This document shows, in pieces, positions 26,907 to 37,159 of a DNA stretch of 48,814 nucleotides. This DNA comes from an uncultured Thermomicrobium sp. (GTDB lineage: Bacteria; Chloroflexota; Chloroflexia; Thermomicrobiales; Thermomicrobiaceae): positions 1-48,814 of the forward strand of contig CALIMB010000046.1 of the NCBI GenBank assembly GCA_938028665.1, in the 5' to 3' direction. Position 1 is the stretch's first letter. Every line of letters starts with the position of its first letter. Both the position numbers and the translations under genes were made by a program. The notes below the pieces were generated by a model. That model was not told where the DNA came from, ran no database searches, and saw nothing but the letters and a program-made list of their open reading frames with translations.

Positions 26907-28109
26907 ATGAGTGAACGTTCTGCACGAGTCATTGGACTACTTATCGGACTTTCTCTTGGGCAATGGGTCGGGCGGCGGGCACGGGATCGCGTTGCCACAT
27001 GGGAACCGCCGGGTCTAATTGATTGGGGGCGGGCTCGAGAGCTTGCGATGCGCTTCGCTGGGGAAGTGCGACTGAGTGCTGAAGACCGAGAAGCAGTCAC
27101 TGGGACCTATCGGCGCTTGACTGAGGAATTGGCACCAGCAATTGCTACCTTTGTCGGAGCTCCTGTTCCGCCAGGGGCTCAGCGTATCTATGCCTTTGAT
27201 CGTATCGACTGGATTGACGCGAACCTTGAGAGTTTTGCAGAGATCCTGCGACCACTCGAGACGCTCGTATCTCTCCCACAGCATCCACTGGCCAGAGTGG
27301 GTGCGCTGGCCTGGGCGTATGCCGGGAGATCGGCCGCGACGATGGAGATTGGTATGGCCTTGGGCTTTCTGTCCCGGCGCGTGCTTGGTCAGTACGATAT
27401 TACTGTTCTTGGACGTGAACCGGTCACAACGGGGAAATTGTACTTCGTTGAGCCGAATGTTCGGTGGCTTATCCGGACATGGCGGCTTCCGGAGGTCGAT
27501 TTTCGCCGATGGCTGGTGCTGCATGAGGTCACTCATGCCTTTGAGTTCGAAACGTACCCATGGCTTCGGGAACATGTCAATGGACTCCTGCGACGATGGG
27601 TGGAGGCGCTTCGCCTAGATGGCAACTTGGGGCGGCGACTTATCGAGGTCATACGCTCTGCGAGTCGACGTGAAGTGGATCATGAAGTCACTTGGATTGA
27701 ACTGCTCATGTCGCCAGAGCAACGTCGCTTGTTTCGGTCACTGCAAGCGGTTATGGCGGTCGTAGAAGGGTACAGTAATTTCGTGATGCGGCAAGTCGGG
27801 CGCCACCTAGTGAGCAAGTACGATGTCATCGAGCGAAAGTTTGAAGAACGGGAGCGCATGCGGACGCCCGCCGAGCAACTTGTGCTTCGTCTGACAGGTT
27901 TGGATATTAAGCTTGAGCAGTACCGACGAGGAGAGACATTCTGCCGCACCCTCGCTGAGCGCTATGGGCGAGATAGTCTGCAGCTTCTCTGGCGTGGGCC
28001 GGATTTCTTGCCGAGCTACGCGGAGCTCTCGGATCCTGATGCATGGTTCCAGCGAGTACAGCGGAGCGACGATCAGTATGGCGCTAGACCTGACGAAGGT
28101 CATCAGTGA
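26907..28109 (+). CDS. zincin-like metallopeptidase, DUF2342 family
   Basis: 400-residue protein of the DUF2342/Zincin_2 family (often named F420 biosynthesis-associated protein from genomic context). The HEVTH motif at 206-210 supplies two zinc-binding histidines and the catalytic glutamate of gluzincin-like peptidases. A hydrophobic N-terminal stretch (VIGLLIGLSLGQWVG, residues 8-22) could be a membrane anchor or amphipathic helix. The rest is helical, with conserved DWIDANLESF and YSNFVMRQVG segments. ATG 26907 is chosen because GGAG lies eight bases upstream; the open frame begins earlier inside the VanW gene. Its last 32 bases overlap the nurA start. The family's physiological role is unproven; no F420 gene is nearby. 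Confidence 0.85.
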   Translation: MSERSARVIGLLIGLSLGQWVGRRARDRVATWEPPGLIDWGRARELAMRFAGEVRLSAEDREAVTGTYRRLTEELAPAIATFVGAPVPPGAQRIYAFDRIDWIDANLESFAEILRPLETLVSLPQHPLARVGALAWAYAGRSAATMEIGMALGFLSRRVLGQYDITVLGREPVTTGKLYFVEPNVRWLIRTWRLPEVDFRRWLVLHEVTHAFEFETYPWLREHVNGLLRRWVEALRLDGNLGRRLIEVIRSASRREVDHEVTWIELLMSPEQRRLFRSLQAVMAVVEGYSNFVMRQVGRHLVSKYDVIERKFEERERMRTPAEQLVLRLTGLDIKLEQYRRGETFCRTLAERYGRDSLQLLWRGPDFLPSYAELSDPDAWFQRVQRSDDQYGARPDEGHQ

Positions 28110-29271
28110 ATTGCGACGCGCTGTCGCGGTGGCTGTAGCTCGCGCGCAGAGCGGGGCGGACGAATTTGTTGAATTGCTCCGGCGGTTCGACGACACGGAA
28201 GTCCGGAAGCGGGTTGAGGAAGCTCGAACATCATGGCTTCTGGCAGTAGCTCTCGAGCGGTATTTTGCGCGCTATGGTGTTTCTGACCTCTGTCCGGTCT
28301 ACTACAGCTGTGTGGCAACTGACGGGTCACTTGTTACCAGCGATCGGCATGGGCCACTGCATTACGCGATCGTGAATATCGGGTTTTGTGTTCTGGAGTA
28401 TGGCCCCTCTCCGCAAGCCAGACTCGGTGCGCAACCAACCGTGCTGTGGAGAGACGAGGACCTTTGGATTACCGACGGTTCGCGGCGAATTCCGGTTACC
28501 GGAGCTGCTCTTGCCGCACGACGCGCAGTTATGGAGCTGGAAACCGGGTTGCGTCTCAGTGACCGCACACAGTCGCCGGTGGCCGTCTTACAGGATGGAA
28601 CTCTTATCCCATGGGGGTTGGAAGGCCAAACGGGCCTAGTTGTCACCTGGGCCCTGGACAACTTCGCGACCGTTCTCCAGGAGTACCGTCGGCGAAAGGT
28701 TCCAGTTGCTGGAGTGATTAGCTATCCAGGGTCGAGGGATGTCGTGAATGTGCTTCGCGTCGCGGCGTGCGACTACCCACTACTCGGACATGTGGTTGAC
28801 TGCGACGACTGTCTGGCCCGTGTCCAGCGAGGGGAGCGGCAGCAGGCGTGCAGAATTGTCCCTGATGTGACGGATCGCTGGCTTTTTGGGCGCTGTGAGG
28901 ACGTGCAGCTTCGTCCTGGCGAACGCACTGCCTGCTACCGCAGCCGCTCGACGATTTTGCGACAGCTGCCAGAAGAGGATCAGATTGTCTTTTTTTACCT
29001 GCATACCGGCTCAGAGATTGCACGCGTGGAGATACCACTGTGGGTGGCTCTGGACCCTCAGCTTCTGGAGGTGGTTCACGGGATCATTTGGGACCAGTGC
29101 CGTCGGGCGCGTGGCTATCCACTCGCTCTCCAAGAAGCACATGAGCAAGCGGTGGTTCATCGGGAAGAGCGGCTTCAAATTGAGGCTATTGTCGAGCAGC
29201 TCTTCGCTGATGCAGGTCTGATCCAGGAGCGTTCAGCGAAGGAGCGAAGCAAACGTGTCCGCTTTGCATAA
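28078..29271 (+). CDS. NurA domain-containing nuclease
   Basis: 397-residue protein with the NurA nuclease fold, best known as the 5'-3' end-resection nuclease partnered with the HerA helicase in archaea. The catalytic D82-G-S segment (VATDGS) is the metal-binding first motif of NurA; later VVTWALDNF and GVISYPGSRDVVNVLR correspond to further core elements. Three cysteine pairs in the middle (CDYPLL, CDDCLARV, CRI, CEDV) are unusual and may be structural. ATG 28078 lies within the end of the zincin gene; the protein ends 17 bases inside the next gene, so the three are translationally coupled. It probably works with the HAS-barrel protein downstream. Confidence 0.8.
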   Translation: MALDLTKVISELRRAVAVAVARAQSGADEFVELLRRFDDTEVRKRVEEARTSWLLAVALERYFARYGVSDLCPVYYSCVATDGSLVTSDRHGPLHYAIVNIGFCVLEYGPSPQARLGAQPTVLWRDEDLWITDGSRRIPVTGAALAARRAVMELETGLRLSDRTQSPVAVLQDGTLIPWGLEGQTGLVVTWALDNFATVLQEYRRRKVPVAGVISYPGSRDVVNVLRVAACDYPLLGHVVDCDDCLARVQRGERQQACRIVPDVTDRWLFGRCEDVQLRPGERTACYRSRSTILRQLPEEDQIVFFYLHTGSEIARVEIPLWVALDPQLLEVVHGIIWDQCRRARGYPLALQEAHEQAVVHREERLQIEAIVEQLFADAGLIQERSAKERSKRVRFA

Positions 29272-29884
29272 GTTTCAGCGCATTGGTGAAGTGGTTGAGA
29301 CCTCGACGGTGCAATTTGTTGTTGAGTGCGATGAGCTCGATATGGTGCCCGAGCTGGGATCGTTCGTGCGCGTCAGCGGGACAGGTGTTACTGTAATCTA
29401 TGGGATCGTGGCGTTCGCGGAAACCACGGCGGTTGATCCTGGCCGACGGATCGTTCGGCGTGGTTCGGCGCAACTTCAAGATCACGCGCTTTACGAGGCA
29501 AATCCAGAACTGCGCTTCGTTCTCCGCTCACTGTTCGTGGCGGTGGCCATAGGCTACGAGCACTCTGGACAGCTCATCTTCTTGGTGCCGCCCTTCCCAC
29601 CATCCCTTCATTACAGTGTCGAACTCGTGCCAGAGGGCGAGGTGAGTCGGTTGACCGAGGGGTGTGCCTATTTCCCGCTTCTTGTCGATTACAGCGGTCG
29701 GGTGCCTGCCGAACAACTCCTTGCAGCGCACCTCTACTACGTGTACCGCAAACGGGGCCATGACTGGGATTGGCTCGAACGAGCAGCCAAAGAGGTGGCG
29801 CGGCTCTCCAAACGCGACTATGAGCGCTCACTCCGAGTGCTGAGTGCGTTGGAGGTGATCCTTCAGCATGAACTCGGTCGTTAG
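29255..29884 (+). CDS. HAS-barrel domain protein (HerA N-terminal-like), no ATPase
   Basis: 209-residue protein whose first 80 residues match the HAS barrel found at the N-terminus of HerA-type ATPases (IGEVVETSTVQFVVE, then LGSFVRV and VIYGIVAFAETT). The remainder, about 85-209, is not an ATPase: there is no Walker A or B, only a mixed region with a PPFPPS loop and a C-terminal helical part (RSLRVLSALEVILQHELGR). It starts with GTG inside the nurA end and stops four bases into the convergent purH gene. HAS barrels mediate docking between HerA and NurA, so it may be an adaptor to an ATPase encoded elsewhere. Confidence 0.7.
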   Translation: MSALHKFQRIGEVVETSTVQFVVECDELDMVPELGSFVRVSGTGVTVIYGIVAFAETTAVDPGRRIVRRGSAQLQDHALYEANPELRFVLRSLFVAVAIGYEHSGQLIFLVPPFPPSLHYSVELVPEGEVSRLTEGCAYFPLLVDYSGRVPAEQLLAAHLYYVYRKRGHDWDWLERAAKEVARLSKRDYERSLRVLSALEVILQHELGR

Positions 29885-31395
29885 TGGCGAAAATGCCGCT
29901 CTCCGGTGAAGACCATCGCTATGCCCGCGCGTTCTGCGGCCGTGATCACTTCTCCATCGCGGCGTGCTCCACCCGGTTGGATAATCGCGGTGATACCGGC
30001 AGCAGCGGCGACCTCGATGCTGTCGGGGAAGGGGAAGAAAGCATCGCTTGCCAGTACTGCACCGCGAGTTCGTTCGCCAGCCCGCCAGACGGCTAAACGA
30101 ACCGCATCCACGCGATTTGGCTGACCGCCACCGATTCCGACTGTTTGCCCATCACGGGCAATGACAATGCCATTGGAAAGGACGAAGGGCACGATGGTCC
30201 AGGCAAAGGAGAGGTCACGCCACTCAGTCTCATTCGGATGCCGCGTCGTCACGACTTGCCATGAGTCTTGTGAGCGAACGGGGATATCTGGTGACTGTAC
30301 CAAAGCTATGTCTCCGGCACTTCGAAGCACATAAGGAGGATCAGCCCAGGGAGGAGCAAAGACGAGGCGAAGGGTCTTGCGTCGTCGCAGCACTTCTTCA
30401 GCCTCGCGCTCGATCGACGGCGCCACGATGAGATCGAAGAGATGCTGGGCGAGTGATCGAGCCGTTGAAGTATCGACCGGACGATTCAAGGCTACAATAC
30501 CGCCGAAAGCAGAAACTGGATCAGCGTCGAAGGCTCGAGCGAACGCTGCCTCGATTGTCTCGGCAATAGCGACACCACAGGGAGCAGCGTGCTTGACGAT
30601 CACGACAGCTGGCTCAGCGAAGCGGTTGACAAGCTGCCAAGCGGCGGAGGCGTCTAGGATATTGTTATAGGAGAGTTCGACTTCACTAACCATACGCCAA
30701 GAGTCGATTTGGGAAGGGAAGCCAGCGACCCGGTAGAGAGCAGCCGTCTGATGCGGATTTTCCCCATAACGAAGCGCTCGGACCCGGCGTAAGGGGAGCG
30801 GCAAGAGCTCGGGGAAGGACTCAGTTCGCAAGTAGGCTGCAATCTGCGCGTCGTAGGTTGCAAGGTGGGCAAAAGCTTTCGCAGCCAGTTCGCGGCGGAG
30901 AGCATAGGGGACTGCTCGCGGGCCGCCGCGGGCAAGCTCAGTGAGGATGCGCTGGTAGTCGGAGGGGTCGACGATAGGCAGGACCCAGGAGAAATTTTTG
31001 GCTGCGGCGCGAAGCAGGCTTGGCCCCCCGACGTCGATCAGTTCGATCGCTTCGTCTTCTGGTGTTTCGGAGGTCACCGCACGATCAAACGGGTACAAGT
31101 TGACTACAACAAGTTCAATTGGCTCGAACCCGTACCGTGCGAGCTGCTCGAGATCCTCCGGGCGATCGTGGCGAGCAAGAATCGCAGCGTGGATGGCTGG
31201 ATGCAGCGTTTTCACACGGCCGCCGAGGAGATCTGGAAACCCGGTGAGGTCGGAGATTTCGCGAACCGGGACACCGTGTTCGCGTAGGACCCGGGCTGTT
31301 CCGCCCGTTGAAAGGAGTTTCCATCCGAGGGCGACGAGTTGCTGGCCTAACTCTACGATCCCAGACTTGTCGTAGACCGAGAGGAGTGCGCGCAT
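29881..31395 (-). CDS. purH: bifunctional AICAR transformylase/IMP cyclohydrolase
   Basis: 504-residue PurH catalysing the last two steps of de novo IMP synthesis. The IMP cyclohydrolase domain (about 1-190) opens with LLSVYDKSGIVELGQQL and contains GGRVKTLHPAIHAAIL. The transformylase domain follows, with the catalytic KHAAPCG motif near residues 266-272 and the LRYGENPHQ linker. ATG 31395 follows GGGAGG by four bases. It is the distal gene of the roadblock-purM-mglA-HD-purH run, starting 14 bases after the HD gene stop, and its stop overlaps the stop of the HAS gene by four bases. Confidence 0.95.
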   Translation of the reverse strand: MRALLSVYDKSGIVELGQQLVALGWKLLSTGGTARVLREHGVPVREISDLTGFPDLLGGRVKTLHPAIHAAILARHDRPEDLEQLARYGFEPIELVVVNLYPFDRAVTSETPEDEAIELIDVGGPSLLRAAAKNFSWVLPIVDPSDYQRILTELARGGPRAVPYALRRELAAKAFAHLATYDAQIAAYLRTESFPELLPLPLRRVRALRYGENPHQTAALYRVAGFPSQIDSWRMVSEVELSYNNILDASAAWQLVNRFAEPAVVIVKHAAPCGVAIAETIEAAFARAFDADPVSAFGGIVALNRPVDTSTARSLAQHLFDLIVAPSIEREAEEVLRRRKTLRLVFAPPWADPPYVLRSAGDIALVQSPDIPVRSQDSWQVVTTRHPNETEWRDLSFAWTIVPFVLSNGIVIARDGQTVGIGGGQPNRVDAVRLAVWRAGERTRGAVLASDAFFPFPDSIEVAAAAGITAIIQPGGARRDGEVITAAERAGIAMVFTGERHFRH

Positions 31396-31408: not shown

Positions 31409-32011
31409 TCATGATGATTCTATATGCTGAGGCAGAATGAGTACATCTTTCCCAAAGACAGCGCGAAAGAGTCCCGAGCGAGCCTGTGCTTTCTCGACTT
31501 CCAGTGTGGGATACGTGTTCGACAGTGCGTAGATAGTGACATACCCGTCAGAGAATTCGATATGAACGTCCTTGACGAATTGTTGATGACTTGCATCAAG
31601 TCCCTCGGCAATGCGAAGAATCGCTGCAAGTTGTTGGACAAGATGGCGGAACCGGGGTGGCAAACGCTGGAACTGCGGATGTCGCAGTGAGGGTTCGGCG
31701 GCACGATGATACCGTGCGATGTTCGCAATCGCCAGCTGTTCCGTCCGATCAAATCCCTTCAGGGGGATTGCCATGATTCGATCGAAACTATATCGGTGAT
31801 GCTCTGCAAGCGAACGGAATTGCCCGCAATCATGCCAGAGTGCGGCTGCGGCCAGTAAATCACGGCCCTCTGGTGGGAGGTGAAAGCGGTCTTGGAGCTG
31901 ATCGAACAGCTGGAGCGCAAGGAAAGCGACATGCTCGCTATGCTCAGGATCAGGCGTCTCGATTGAAGCAGCTGCCCATGCCCGCTCAAGTGATGGATCG
32001 GCGCGAGTCAT
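31409..32011 (-). CDS. stand-alone HD domain protein, Ppx/GppA C-terminal type
   Basis: 200-residue protein equal to the C-terminal helical HD part of exopolyphosphatase/pppGpp phosphatase, without the N-terminal ASKHA catalytic domain. HD-site residues are seen in WHDCG, the following HHRYSFDRI, and IANIARYHR; LAAILRIAEGLDASH and the closing beta region (VHIEFSDGYVTIYA) complete the match. Possible roles are metal-dependent hydrolysis or nucleotide sensing. ATG 32011 follows GGAGG by eight bases; the frame upstream overlaps the MglA gene. It lies between the MglA GTPase gene (49 bases) and purH (13 bases). Confidence 0.8.
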   Translation of the reverse strand: MTRADPSLERAWAAASIETPDPEHSEHVAFLALQLFDQLQDRFHLPPEGRDLLAAAALWHDCGQFRSLAEHHRYSFDRIMAIPLKGFDRTEQLAIANIARYHRAAEPSLRHPQFQRLPPRFRHLVQQLAAILRIAEGLDASHQQFVKDVHIEFSDGYVTIYALSNTYPTLEVEKAQARSGLFRAVFGKDVLILPQHIESS

Positions 32012-32060
32012 ACAATCCGCCTCCACACGGGGAAGTATGCCTGAGCGAGCGTGGTTGGGG

Positions 32061-32636
32061 TTACAGTCGGTCGACAACGAGCTTAATGATGGCGCGGAGC
32101 GTTTCGATGACACCGACAGACCGGACGGCAATAGCTGGAAAACGGGGGACGCGCATGGGATTGAGATAGCGATCAAGGATGTGAATCGGGAGTGCGTTCG
32201 GGAGATCCAACTTGTTGTATTGAAGCACCAAGGGAAAGTCGAGAGGGCGCTTTCCTTGCTTTGCCAAGTTTTGCGCGAGTTCTCGAAGGCTCTGGAGGTT
32301 TTCGGCTAAACGCTCGCGCTGCGCATCGGCCACGAAGACGACTCCATCGGCACCACTCAGGACGGCGATCCGAGTCTGTCGGTAGAGTGTTTGCCCCGGA
32401 ACGGTGTATAACTGGAGGCGGAGTCGGTACCCATGCACGGTGCCAACATCCAGAGGCAGAAAATCGAAGAACAAAGTTCGTTCGCGTTCTGTGTCGATCG
32501 AAATCAACTCACTTTTCGCATGGTCTGGCAGTGAGTTATGGATGACGTGTAAATTAGTCGTCTTCCCGCTGAGCCCAGGGCCGTAGTAGACGATCTTTCC
32601 GTGGATTTCTCGAGTGGCGATGTCAATTAATGCCAT
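32061..32636 (-). CDS. mglA: MglA-type small Ras-like GTPase
   Basis: 191-residue small GTPase close to Myxococcus MglA, the switch that sets cell polarity. P-loop: GPGLSGKTTN near residues 19-28 after KIVYYG; switch II region: TVPGQTLYRQTR; guanine specificity: NKLD near 141-144; the family's FFDFLPLDVG segment lies in the middle. No lipidation signal or membrane segment. It sits 64 bases downstream of purM and 49 upstream of the HD gene on the minus strand, and a roadblock/LC7 gene (the usual MglB-type GAP/partner) lies just beyond purM. Function outside gliding bacteria is unclear; possible roles include pili positioning or metabolic polarity. Confidence 0.88.
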   Translation of the reverse strand: MALIDIATREIHGKIVYYGPGLSGKTTNLHVIHNSLPDHAKSELISIDTERERTLFFDFLPLDVGTVHGYRLRLQLYTVPGQTLYRQTRIAVLSGADGVVFVADAQRERLAENLQSLRELAQNLAKQGKRPLDFPLVLQYNKLDLPNALPIHILDRYLNPMRVPRFPAIAVRSVGVIETLRAIIKLVVDRL

Positions 32637-32700
32637 AACTCTTCACCACCGAGTCATGGCGGTGACTCTCAGTCGCACTGCATTGGCCAACAATTCGAGA

Positions 32701-33774
32701 CTAGGAACCACTCGTCAAGACCACATCCGAGTCTGTTCCGAGGCGCAGACTGACACGCGGTGTGTCCCCCTCGCATACCTGGCCGATGATCCACCCCTCA
32801 CCGGTTGATTGACGGAGTGCCTGAATGAATTGCGCTTCCCCAATGACTACAAAGCCGACTCCCATGTTAAAGACACGGTACATTTCGCTGAGCGGTACCC
32901 GACCCCGCTGTTGGAGTTCCAGGAACAGTGGTGGGACCGCCCACGTTGTGGCATCGATCTCTACACGACGACCCCGAGGAATGATGCGGGCGATGTTTTC
33001 GACCAACCCGCCGCCAGTGATGTGGGCAAGCCCATGTAGACCTGGATGATCCAACCATGGATGTAACAGCGGATAGTAGCACCGATGGGGCTCGAGCAGG
33101 AGATCACCGAGGGAGTGCTGGGTCCATGCCGGGATCTCGGCGAGAATCTGTTGGTCGTGTTCGCGCTCGCCAGTCAAGCCCAGACAAGCTCGCGCGAGCG
33201 TGTATCCGTTCGTGTGCAATCCACTGCTCGGTAACCCAAGGACGAGATCACCAACTGCAATCTGTCGTCCGTCAATGATTCGATCAGTCGAGACCACACC
33301 GACCATGCAGCCAGCCAGATCGTACGTTCCTGCGTGGTAAATGCCGGGAAGCTGTGCTGTTTCACCCCCGATGAGTGCGCAACCCAGCGCTCGGCAAGCG
33401 TCGGTCATACCGCGAACCAGTTCCTCCAGGATATTTTCCTCAAGGCGAGCAGCAGCGAAATAATCCAGGAAGAACAGCGGCTGCGCACCACAGGCAAGAA
33501 GGTCGTTCGCACTGTGATGGACGAGATCAACACCGATACCGTAATGGCGGCCGAGAGTTGCCGCAAGAAGCACTTTTGTCCCGACGCTATCGATAGTTGC
33601 GACCAGCGCCAGGGAGCCATTACTGCCGGGGGCGGCAAAGAAGCCACCAAACAGCCCGAGTGGTCGAAGCACGTCCGGTCCGAATGTTCCCTCCACTACG
33701 CGAGCGATACGTGCTTTGACAGACTCTGCCCGAACGAGATCGACCCCACTACGGGCGTAAGACAACAGCTCCAT
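32701..33774 (-). CDS. purM: phosphoribosylformylglycinamidine cyclo-ligase
   Basis: 357-residue PurM (AIR synthetase), which closes the imidazole ring in purine synthesis using ATP. Family hallmarks are the N-terminal SYARSGVDL, the glycine-rich VATIDSVGTKVLLA near residue 60-73, DLVHHSANDLLACGA, and the IGGETAQLPGIY active-site stretch; the C-terminal ATP-grasp-like half carries AHITGGGLVENIARI. Length is typical. It follows the roadblock gene by 12 bases and is followed 64 bases later by the MglA gene, so the small GTPase module is split by this enzyme. Confidence 0.95.
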   Translation of the reverse strand: MELLSYARSGVDLVRAESVKARIARVVEGTFGPDVLRPLGLFGGFFAAPGSNGSLALVATIDSVGTKVLLAATLGRHYGIGVDLVHHSANDLLACGAQPLFFLDYFAAARLEENILEELVRGMTDACRALGCALIGGETAQLPGIYHAGTYDLAGCMVGVVSTDRIIDGRQIAVGDLVLGLPSSGLHTNGYTLARACLGLTGEREHDQQILAEIPAWTQHSLGDLLLEPHRCYYPLLHPWLDHPGLHGLAHITGGGLVENIARIIPRGRRVEIDATTWAVPPLFLELQQRGRVPLSEMYRVFNMGVGFVVIGEAQFIQALRQSTGEGWIIGQVCEGDTPRVSLRLGTDSDVVLTSGS

Positions 33775-33786
33775 GTATACTCCTCG

Positions 33787-34155
33787 TCACGCTCCCGCGG
33801 ACTGCGTTGCGTGGCTAACCGGGATACCAAGACGACGAACGGCGAGTCGCAGTCGCCCGAGATTCGTGCTGCCAGCGGCGACGAGAACCAATGCCGTATC
33901 CTGGTCGAGAGGTGTGACCAGCACGAGATGCCGATCAAACTCAATGATTGCCTGACGTGGTGTACTGGCGAGCTCCTGCCCTAGCGCCTCGAGCATTAAC
34001 AGCCCGCTGACCGCATTTGCAGCAATCGCTTCAGCGTCGATCTCGGTTCCGCTGGCTGTTGCTGCATCCACGATCAAACCATCAGCCGTGACAACGAGGG
34101 CCGCCTCGAGGGCATAGTCCTTTTGCAACTTTTGGACCAAGTCACCGAATGACAC
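33787..34155 (-). CDS. roadblock/LC7 domain protein (MglB-like)
   Basis: 122-residue roadblock/LC7 protein, the fold of MglB and of longin-like GTPase regulators. The pattern is a helix (FGDLVQKLQKDYALEAALVV), the typical VTADGLIVDAATA turn, a second helix (DAEAIAANAVSGLLMLEALGQEL), then IEFDRHLVLVTPLDQDTALVLV. The GTG at 34155 has AGGAGG five bases upstream and gives a clean roadblock domain; an upstream ATG at 34197 would add an unconserved leader. It is the first gene of a run containing purM and an MglA-type GTPase, and probably acts as the GAP or localisation partner of that GTPase. Confidence 0.85.
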   Translation of the reverse strand: MSFGDLVQKLQKDYALEAALVVTADGLIVDAATASGTEIDAEAIAANAVSGLLMLEALGQELASTPRQAIIEFDRHLVLVTPLDQDTALVLVAAGSTNLGRLRLAVRRLGIPVSHATQSAGA

Positions 34156-34279: not shown

Positions 34280-35569
34280 TCATCGGGGTACGACATAGTG
34301 ATCCAGCCGAGGAAGGAGCGCAAGCGGGACTTGAGCATCGACGATGATGTCGTTGGCACTGTACCGTCGCTCGGCGATTGTCCCGCGTTCCTCGAGAAGT
34401 GTCAAAAGATTTGTTTCGCGGTACGGTATCCGCAAGCGAACCCAGACAGGTGTTGTGATATCCTGGAGGACTGCGGCGATGCGTTGTCGTAGGGCGTCCA
34501 ATCCCTGGCCAGTAACCGCAGAGACAAGAAGCGCGTTTGAAGGAAGCCCCAACTCTTGGGCAAGCCGCTCGGGATCGACCTCTGGCGTCAGCAAATCGAT
34601 CTTGTTGAGTACCGTAATGGTCGGGTAACCATCTGCCCCGAGTTCGTGTAGGACCTTCCGCACGGTCGCTGCTTGTTCGGCGGCTTTAGGATGTGTTACG
34701 TCCACAACATGCAGGAGCAGCTGAGCATCCAAAATCTCCTCGAGGGTTGCCCGAAACGCGGCAACAAGAGATGTAGGAAGTTTATGGATGAATCCGACAG
34801 TGTCGGTCAAGAGGGCGATTTGCCCGTCTGGGAGGGTCAGTCGGCGCGTGGTGGGATCTAATGTCGCGAATAGCTTGTCCTCGGCTAGGACGGAAGCGCC
34901 AGTCAGGGCATTAAGGAGCGTTGACTTGCCTGCGTTGGTGTAGCCAACGAGGGAGATCACCGGTAGGCGCTCTTGCCGTCGCCGCTGACGATAGCGCTCG
35001 CGATGCCGTCGGACCTCTTCCAACTGGCGACGAATCCAGGCGATCCGTTCTCGGGCACGCCGGCGGTCGATCTCCAGCTGAGTCTCGCCCGGTCCGCGCA
35101 ATCCGACTCCACCAACTGCCTGCCGGGACAAATGAGTCCACATGCGGGTGAGACGCGGCAAACGGTACTCCAATTGCGCAAGCTCAACTTGCAAGCGACC
35201 TTCGCGAGTCTGCGCGCGGCGGGCGAAGATGTCAAGGATCAGCGCGGTACGATCAAGAACTTTCACCTGCAACGCATCCTCAAGGTGCCGAAGCTGGGCG
35301 GGGCTCAGCTCGTCGTCTGCGAGGAGGACAGAAAAGTCCAGCTCACGACGAAGAGCTGCGATCTCCGCCAGTTTACCCGGTCCGACATAATGTCGTGGAT
35401 GAGGATGCGGCAAATGCTGTGTCACGGCGCCAACGACCTGAAGGCCGGCAGTGTCAGCAAGCTGAGCAAGCTCTGCAAGGGAGGACGCAAGATCCCATCC
35501 GTCTTGACGCCAATGGACGCAGACGAGAAGTGCGCGCTCAACAGCTGTGGAGCGATTCGCCTTGTGCGT
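34280..35569 (-). CDS. hflX: ribosome-associated GTPase HflX
   Basis: About 429-residue HflX, which splits or rescues stalled ribosomes. The N-terminal subdomain carries HYVGPGKLAEI; the coiled-coil linker includes GPGETQLEIDRRR; the G domain shows GYTNAGKSTLLNALTG (P-loop) near residue 200, DTVGFIHKLP (switch II) and NKID. No ATG, GTG or TTG codon lies near the expected N-terminus: the frame is open to 35710 but that enters tRNA-Gln. A strong AGGAGG sits six bases before an ACG codon at 35567-35569, exactly where a start is expected. Either ACG is used as a rare start or the base is a mutation or sequence error. Confidence 0.85.
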   Translation of the reverse strand, partial: THKANRSTAVERALLVCVHWRQDGWDLASSLAELAQLADTAGLQVVGAVTQHLPHPHPRHYVGPGKLAEIAALRRELDFSVLLADDELSPAQLRHLEDALQVKVLDRTALILDIFARRAQTREGRLQVELAQLEYRLPRLTRMWTHLSRQAVGGVGLRGPGETQLEIDRRRARERIAWIRRQLEEVRRHRERYRQRRRQERLPVISLVGYTNAGKSTLLNALTGASVLAEDKLFATLDPTTRRLTLPDGQIALLTDTVGFIHKLPTSLVAAFRATLEEILDAQLLLHVVDVTHPKAAEQAATVRKVLHELGADGYPTITVLNKIDLLTPEVDPERLAQELGLPSNALLVSAVTGQGLDALRQRIAAVLQDITTPVWVRLRIPYRETNLLTLLEERGTIAERRYSANDIIVDAQVPLALLPRLDHYVVPR

Positions 35570-35681: not shown

Positions 35682-35755
35682 TGGCTGGGGAGTAGGGATT
35701 CGAACCCCAACTAGCTGATCCAGAGTCAGCCGTCCTACCGTTAGACGACTCCCCA
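35682..35755 (-). tRNA. tRNA-Gln (CTG)
   Basis: Minus-strand cloverleaf: acceptor TGGGGAG/CTCCCCA, anticodon stem GCTGA/TCAGC with loop CTCTGGA (anticodon CTG), T-loop TTCGAAT, discriminator G, and an encoded CCA at 35682-35684. The U1-A72 acceptor start pair is typical of bacterial tRNA-Gln. Confidence 0.93.
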
Positions 35756-35864: not shown

Positions 35865-36788
35865 ATGATGCGAGTGGGGTACGATCGACCGCTCTATATT
35901 TTGGCTTTCGACCATCGGACATCTTTTGAGGAGATGGCAGTGAAAGCGGGAATAGGCGAGGAGGAGCGGGCTGAGAAGATCCGTCAGGCAAAGCAGGTGA
36001 TCTTCGAAGGGTTCGAAGGTGCGATCGCGCATGGGGCGCCACGTGAGGCTGCGGGGATTCTTGTCGATGAGCAGTATGGAGCGGAGGTGGCACGACGAGC
36101 ACGGGAGCGTGGTTTTCTGTTCGCCATGCCAGTCGAGAAGAGTGGGCAGAAGGTGTTTGACTTTGAGTATGGAGAGCAATTTGGCGAGCACATTCTCGCT
36201 TTCGACCCGACCTTTACAAAGGCGCTTGTCCGGTATAACCCGGACGATTCCCCCGATACGAAGAAGATCCAACTGGAGCGTCTCAAGCGGCTCCACGATT
36301 GGCTGCGGGAGCGGGAGCGGCGATTCCTGCTGGAGCTCCTCGTGCCGGCCACCAAGGAACAGCTGGAGCAGGCCGGCGGGGACACCGAGCGCTATGACCG
36401 GGAGATCCGTCCGGAGCTCACACTGCAGGCCATCGACGAGTTTTATGCGGCAGGTATTGTGCCAGACATCTGGAAGATCGAAGGGCTCGATCGGCGCGAG
36501 GATTGTGAACGAATGGCAGCAAAAGTGCGGAGCGGCGGCCGCGATGCGGTTAGCTGTGTTGTGCTCGGGCGTGGTGCTGATCCGGCGCGGGTAGACCATT
36601 GGTTGCGCATGGGAGCTGGCGTACCAGGGTATATCGGATTTGCAATTGGCCGCACGTTGTGGTGGGATGGTGTCCAAGGTTTCTTGAATGGAACGCTGAC
36701 GCGGGATGCTGCTGCGGAAAAGATCGCCGCGAACTATCGCCGTGCGATTGATCTCTTTGTGGAGGCCTCCCAGGCTGCTGTCCGATGA
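35865..36788 (+). CDS. IolC-type aldolase-domain protein (DUF2090)
   Basis: 307-residue TIM-barrel protein matching DUF2090, the C-terminal domain fused to IolC kinase in many inositol degraders, where it acts as 2-deoxy-5-keto-gluconate-6-phosphate aldolase. Typical features are LAFDHRTSFE at residues 13-22, ILVDEQYGAEVA, MPVEKSGQ (likely catalytic Lys), KALVRYNPD, and VPDIWKIEGLD. Here it stands alone, with neither kinase domain nor other iol genes beside it, so its substrate may differ. ATG 35865 or the adjacent 35868 follows AAAGGGGG. A possible promoter TTGCCA-N18-TAGGGT lies at 35802-35831. It is divergent from tRNA-Gln and followed by a 17-bp hairpin. Confidence 0.8.
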   Translation: MMRVGYDRPLYILAFDHRTSFEEMAVKAGIGEEERAEKIRQAKQVIFEGFEGAIAHGAPREAAGILVDEQYGAEVARRARERGFLFAMPVEKSGQKVFDFEYGEQFGEHILAFDPTFTKALVRYNPDDSPDTKKIQLERLKRLHDWLRERERRFLLELLVPATKEQLEQAGGDTERYDREIRPELTLQAIDEFYAAGIVPDIWKIEGLDRREDCERMAAKVRSGGRDAVSCVVLGRGADPARVDHWLRMGAGVPGYIGFAIGRTLWWDGVQGFLNGTLTRDAAAEKIAANYRRAIDLFVEASQAAVR

Positions 36789-36891: not shown

Positions 36892-36906
36892 CCGATTTCG
36901 TTTGGG

Positions 36907-36979
36907 TGCCGAGGGGCGGGATCGAACCGCCGACACCGTGATTTTCAGTCACGTGCTCTACCAACTGAGCTACCTCGGC
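36907..36979 (-). tRNA. tRNA-Phe (GAA)
   Basis: Minus-strand cloverleaf with acceptor GCCGAGG/CCTCGGC, anticodon stem CGTGA/TCACG and loop CTGAAAA (anticodon GAA), T-loop TTCGATC, discriminator A. CCA is not encoded (CCC follows). Confidence 0.94.
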
Positions 36980-36993
36980 TCATACTGCGCTCG

Positions 36994-37066
36994 TGGGCGA
37001 TAGAGGACTCGAACCTCTGACTTCCACGGTGTAAACGTGGCGCTCTACCAGCTGAGCTAATCGCCC
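36994..37066 (-). tRNA. tRNA-Val (TAC)
   Basis: Minus-strand cloverleaf with acceptor GGGCGAT/ATCGCCC, anticodon stem CCACG/CGTGG and loop TTTACAC (anticodon TAC), T-arm AGAGG TTCGAGT CCTCT, discriminator A. CCA not encoded. Confidence 0.94.
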
Positions 37067-37072
37067 GCGAAG

Positions 37073-37159
37073 TGGTGCCGAGGAAGGGATTTGAACCCCC
37101 ACGCCCTTTCGGGCACTACCCCCTCAAGGTAGCGCGTCTGCCTGTTCCGCCACCTCGGC
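37073..37159 (-). tRNA. tRNA-Leu (GAG)
   Basis: Minus-strand class II tRNA with long variable arm (TGCCCGAAAGGGCG), acceptor GCCGAGG/CCTCGGC, anticodon stem CTACC/GGTAG and loop TTGAGGG (anticodon GAG), discriminator A and encoded CCA at 37073-37075. It is first in the Leu-Val-Phe transcript. Confidence 0.93.

Follow-up and report, generated by a model that had tools for sequence, protein, structure and literature searches.

Among bacterial Ras-like switches MglA is the best studied, usually along with its partner MglB. In Myxococcus xanthus, two accessory polarity proteins also act with MglB, namely MglC, an MglB paralogue, and RomY, which stimulates the GAP activity of MglB.

Group 1 MglAs are recognised by a GxxxxGKT P-loop, an Arg beside the G2 Thr, TVPGQ in G3 and NKxD in G4 (PMC4316618). 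A D-x-x-G signature marks Group 1 MglBs, and a D-G pair marks the MglBs of Groups 2-5 (Wuichet & Sogaard-Andersen, PMC4316618). MglB further carries an N-terminal strand and a C-terminal helix extension (PMC11016934). In M. xanthus, strand β0 of MglA is paired with a strand made up of MglB residues 2-7 (PMC11016934, PMC6785124), and the other contact on MglA is a hydrophobic face of F56, F57 and F59 (PMC6785124). For a small fraction of Group 1 MglAs, coupling to two MglB homologues is reported, only one of which coevolves (Wuichet & Sogaard-Andersen 2014, PMC4316618), and orphan MglAs such as SofG and the Bdellovibrio protein are functional (PMC4316618).

The Thermomicrobium system described here resembles the Group 1 systems of M. 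xanthus and Thermus thermophilus in its MglA, which has the intrinsic Arg53, TVPGQ and the MglB-docking Phe residues. It differs from them in that MglB is missing genus-wide, Asn5 of MglA is changed, no PilT was found above cut-off, and the roadblock protein belongs to another clade, is short and bears D-G rather than D-x-x-G. MglC and RomY likewise are additional proteins beside MglB, whereas Thermomicrobium has no MglB left for such a protein to act on. The genus thus offers a natural test of an MglA-type switch that lacks its standard partner.

Gene order at the locus

The window, i.e. the whole stretch of DNA analysed (48,814 nucleotides, from an uncultured Thermomicrobium sp.), carries the genes hflX-roadblock-purM-mglA-HD-purH in this order on the minus strand. 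The original prediction had listed the five genes from the roadblock to purH, and all five were recovered where it had placed them. Its inter-gene gaps of 12, 64, 49 and 13 bases came out the same when recomputed from the coordinates; the cluster also extends upstream to hflX, which it had omitted. The features are as follows.

34280..35560 (start approximate), minus strand: hflX, ribosome-associated GTPase (TIGR03156, E 7e-142)
33787..34155, minus strand: robl1, 122-aa roadblock/LC7 protein (Pfam PF03259, Robl_LC7, E 2.6e-9)
32701..33774, minus strand: purM (TIGR00878, E 2e-95)
32637..32700, no strand: purM-mglA spacer of 64 bases, the position of mglB in sister genera
32061..32636, minus strand: MglA, Group 1 type (closest solved structure M. 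xanthus MglA, E 5e-59)
31409..32011, minus strand: stand-alone HD protein (PF21447, Ppx-GppA_III, E 3e-18)
29881..31395, minus strand: purH (TIGR00355)

The first gene of the conserved cluster is hflX, which is the same neighbour in families f1, f2 and f3. Its longest open reading frame extends to 35710 and overlaps tRNA-Gln (35682-35755), so that the true start must lie further in. The start codon of robl1 is a GTG at 34155, with AGGAGG 5 bases upstream, and a promoter and terminator scan of the locus returned matches at chance level only. The gene order is identical in the other Thermomicrobium loci examined, far beyond chance.

A run of tRNA-Phe, -Val and -Leu genes lies immediately upstream (window 36905-37159), and a stand-alone DUF2090 protein, similar to the aldolase half of an IolC-type fusion, is encoded at 35865-36788 (plus strand). 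On the other side, a 209-aa protein (29255-29884, plus strand) overlaps the NurA gene (27913-29271) and gives a weak HAS-barrel match (E 0.2). It is kept beside NurA across the family, the HerA ATPase is not next door, and it may serve NurA as a stand-alone HAS-barrel partner.

Absence of MglB from Thermomicrobium

Sister genera in the same family and order have the cluster hflX-robl1-purM-mglB-mglA-HD-purH, with two roadblock genes flanking purM. The second of these, robl2, touches mglA and corresponds to the MglB of other phyla; sister genera thus carry mglB directly upstream of mglA, as Myxococcus does. The distance between purM and mglA is ~560-670 bases in these genera versus ~50-80 bases in Thermomicrobium loci, and no mglB remnant was seen in the 64-base spacer of the window.

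Genome-wide, exactly one roadblock domain was found in each of the seven Thermomicrobium genomes (four of them ~99% complete), and two or three in most sister-genus genomes. A Chloroflexota MglB profile gave no match at E ≤ 1 in the seven genomes; as a positive control, the same profile matched MglB in five of five related genomes (E 1e-74 to 1e-78), which rules out relocation of mglB elsewhere in the genome. The cognate partner MglB is therefore lost from the genus, and no complete MglA/MglB switch exists there. Sister genera, with robl1 and MglB, fit the described systems of one MglA with two MglB homologues, and Thermomicrobium differs from these systems in having lost the coevolving partner and kept the other. 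Elsewhere, in Gemmatimonadota (L122, L125, L093), three consecutive roadblock genes stand upstream of mglA.

MglA and the remaining roadblock protein

The window MglA carries the Group 1 motifs (P-loop GPGLSGKT, R53-T54, TVPGQ82 and NKLD), its closest solved homologues are the MglA structures 6hjh, 5ymx and 3t12 (E 1e-57 to 1e-59), and it is 86% identical to the MglA of the nearest named relative, Thermomicrobium sp. SKYB23. It cannot be classed as MglB-coupled, since MglB is present in none of the seven Thermomicrobium genomes. Within the genus, its dN/dS is 0.035-0.077 where dS is measurable, a value not above that of the neighbour genes, and decay of MglA after MglB loss is ruled out at this level (0.04-0.08). 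Relative to an outgroup, MglA evolved 3.3 times as fast in the Thermomicrobium lineage as in a sister genus, compared with 1.2-1.6 times for hflX, purM, purH, HD and robl1, in a descriptive comparison of six genes in one lineage.

One residue stands out. Position 5 is Asn in 129 of 130 other MglAs (the remaining one has His) and Asp in all seven Thermomicrobium proteins. By sequence position Asn5 would sit in β0, where it may contact MglB directly. The docking face F56/F57/F59, on the other hand, is whole in 7/7 Thermomicrobium MglAs.

The sole roadblock domain of the genome, robl1, belongs to the Roadblock/LC7 fold by its PF03259 match and by Foldseek, in which its predicted fold is most like MglB (TM 0.75). 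It is nevertheless not an MglB. In a tree of 107 roadblock domains, the robl1 and MglB clades split at 100/99 support, with the window protein within robl1 and Myxococcus MglB grouping with robl2 of the sister genera. Its invariant pair D39-G40 contrasts with D48..G51 (D-x-x-G) in MglB, i.e. the Group 1 signature is lacking. Its model comprises the roadblock core only, the last helix stopping near the C-terminus, without the N-terminal strand or C-terminal helix extension. The tree, the signature and the sister genera that carry both genes rule out that the window roadblock is MglB, and the earlier view of it as MglA's standard GAP partner, split off by purM, falls with this and with the absence of MglB from the genus. 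The protein is kept in 7/7 Thermomicrobium genomes under purifying selection (dN/dS 0.09-0.11). An entire genus is thus without MglB, yet keeps MglA and one other roadblock protein under selection.

Relatives of Thermomicrobium have independently lost all roadblocks. In family f3 of the same order, 22 genomes hold MglA without any roadblock genome-wide; several f3 genomes are incomplete (64-98%), and absence of the roadblock from 30 f3 genomes together is unlikely to be an artefact. Their mglA genes usually adjoin hflX or purM where the context is readable. Among the 21 aligned MglAs of this kind, 17 have Asp5 (the other four being two Asn, one Arg and one Val), and F57 and F59 are retained in 11 and 9, respectively, versus seven of seven each in Thermomicrobium. 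In the MglA tree one of these lineages (L048) is nested among MglB-bearing relatives, which gives at least three independent cases of N5D, namely Thermomicrobium, L048 and the remaining f3. MglA paralogues uncoupled from MglB in Myxococcota, Acidobacteriota and Geobacter mostly have Asn5, and three have Asp. Asn5 as a universal two-way mark of uncoupling is ruled out, because most uncoupled paralogues outside Chloroflexota keep it; within Chloroflexota the N5D pattern holds one way. Set side by side, the three states suggest which residues of MglA serve MglB (Asn5), roadblock docking in general, and GTP hydrolysis.

From these data the following history is proposed. An old Chloroflexota cassette, robl1-mglB-mglA, would have come to lie within a run of purine genes, purM-(purN)-...-purH, and the Thermomicrobium ancestor would then have undergone a clean deletion of mglB between purM and mglA. 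Under strong purifying selection MglA may have been re-specialised, with its MglB-pairing N-terminal strand changed (N5D) and with the hydrophobic β2 roadblock-docking face and the catalytic R53 and Q82 unchanged. A robl1 dimer would dock on MglA-GTP and take over the GAP role of MglB. The product would be a minimal two-protein switch, devoid of the C-terminal helix to which MglB owes its exchange activity, and probably expressed together with hflX and the purine genes. We give this account as a whole slightly better than even credence. The comparison of the three protein families covered sequences and single-chain models. The most economical interpretation is that a roadblock dimer still docks on the Thermomicrobium MglA, with robl1 as the sole candidate. 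Thermomicrobium retains an intact docking face, whereas about half of the relatives without roadblocks show an eroded one, so that a takeover by robl1 is probable.

In a different reading, Thermomicrobium MglA is an orphan GTPase without a roadblock partner, as in roadblock-less f3, and robl1 has a separate job. The two proteins could indeed act independently. Since F56/F57/F59 also survive in about half of the relatives without a roadblock, a retained face is no proof of such a partner; the 22 f3 genomes, the functional orphans SofG and Bdellovibrio MglA (PMC4316618), and the N5D change common to Thermomicrobium and the roadblock-less lineages all fit an orphan. The persistence of robl1 under purifying selection in every Thermomicrobium genome and the full docking face do not, and we regard the orphan reading as credible but unlikely.

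The HD protein, pili and the purine neighbourhood

The HD protein consists of domains III and IV, the C-terminal half of the Ppx/GppA fold (PF21447; model pLDDT 94; Foldseek matches to Ppx/GppA chains). Alignments show that it retains H24, H60-D61, H71, H102 and D139, among which H24, H60-D61 and D139 make up the H..HD..D metal-ligand set, and it is probably a metal phosphohydrolase, as judged from these residues; Deinococcus Ppx has HE in place of the HD pair. It shares the domain III-IV fold with Ppx/GppA exopolyphosphatases, but it stands alone, in a genome without domains I-II, and having domains III/IV only it does not qualify as a Ppx/GppA phosphatase. The catalytic domains I-II (PF02541) were found in none of the Thermomicrobium genomes searched, which rules out that it is a detached regulatory domain of a resident Ppx/GppA. 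Among the loci examined, HD adjoins mglA only in families f1 and f2, and stand-alone relatives occur away from mglA in Ktedonobacteria and other lineages.

PilT was not detected above cut-off in any genome of the family. In most of them there is only a weak ATPase match, in an open reading frame of ~410-540 aa, the size class of CpaF/TadA, and a contig-edge fragment in G011 scores higher than the other weak matches. T. roseum is described as non-motile, with a megaplasmid-borne flagellar system. Involvement in type IV pilus polarity is thus not supported, and this role was set aside.

These results bear on the original prediction of a complete MglA/roadblock spatial switch for polarity or pili, in which the HD protein would sense alarmones or polyphosphate and the switch would be tied to this sensing and to GTP supply. 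The conserved pur-gene neighbourhood and the kept catalytic residues of MglA agree with it. Pilus control, however, meets a family without PilT above cut-off and with weak CpaF/TadA-size matches in its place, and alarmone or polyphosphate sensing meets genomes that lack the Ppx/GppA catalytic domains. Together with the absence of MglB and the restriction of the HD-mglA adjacency to f1 and f2 among the loci examined, this already largely contradicts the complete switch, which we consider very improbable.

The tie to purine genes fared better. MglA was found in 78 of 301 sampled Chloroflexota genomes, and the expected conservation of gene order across the phylum was largely borne out, with mglA just upstream of purH, on the same strand and within ~1.2 kb, in eight families (f1, f2, f6, f12, f29, f43, f46 and f50). 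The distance is 2.4-5.3 kb in f8 and f9, and within the fetched stretch purH was not seen near mglA in f3, f4, f7, f11, f20, f27, f56 and f71. In much of the order mglA lies downstream of purM. The f50 order is purM-purN-mglB-mglA-purH, which looks like mglBA set inside a purMNH run; purN is present in f50 only among the loci examined. Loss of purN from the genome was ruled out by its presence on another contig.

Whether this neighbourhood has meaning for MglA is evenly balanced in our judgement. The arrangement may have arisen by historical accident, as a housekeeping operon that persists because co-expression is convenient, with MglA and purine synthesis functionally unconnected; such an origin of the neighbourhood would leave room for a robl1 takeover of the switch. 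The neighbours vary, with DUF4388, HD or nothing between mglA and purH and purN confined to f50, and no description of a link between mglA and pur genes was found in the papers searched (a limited library). Against an accident, eight families from distant lineages of the phylum still have mglA close to purH, though f3, f7, f20 and f27 do not, and this persistence argues for some selection that holds the genes together. The MglA-purine tie in Chloroflexota thereby becomes a testable, phylum-wide pattern.

A stronger, joint claim can be framed, in which a non-MglB roadblock is the sole GAP after clean loss of MglB, Asn5 is a single-residue marker of coupling to MglB, with a tendency to become Asp once MglB is lost from a genome, and the phylum-wide mglA-purH linkage is one through which MglA activity would follow or control purine/GTP supply. 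All three parts holding together is, in our view, distinctly improbable.

The slot between mglA and purH is itself variable. In Chloroflexia it is occupied by a DUF4388 protein where f1 and f2 have HD. In one f1 genus, with mglA and purH within 2.6 kb, an acetamidase gene is inserted; an acetamidase/formamidase gene (L043, 10664-11977) lies between mglA and HD in one genus. DUF4388 proteins lie just downstream of mglA in L140 (10416-11213) and L134 (10618-11427), and the one in L140, which sits between mglA and purH, carries a MarR-like part.
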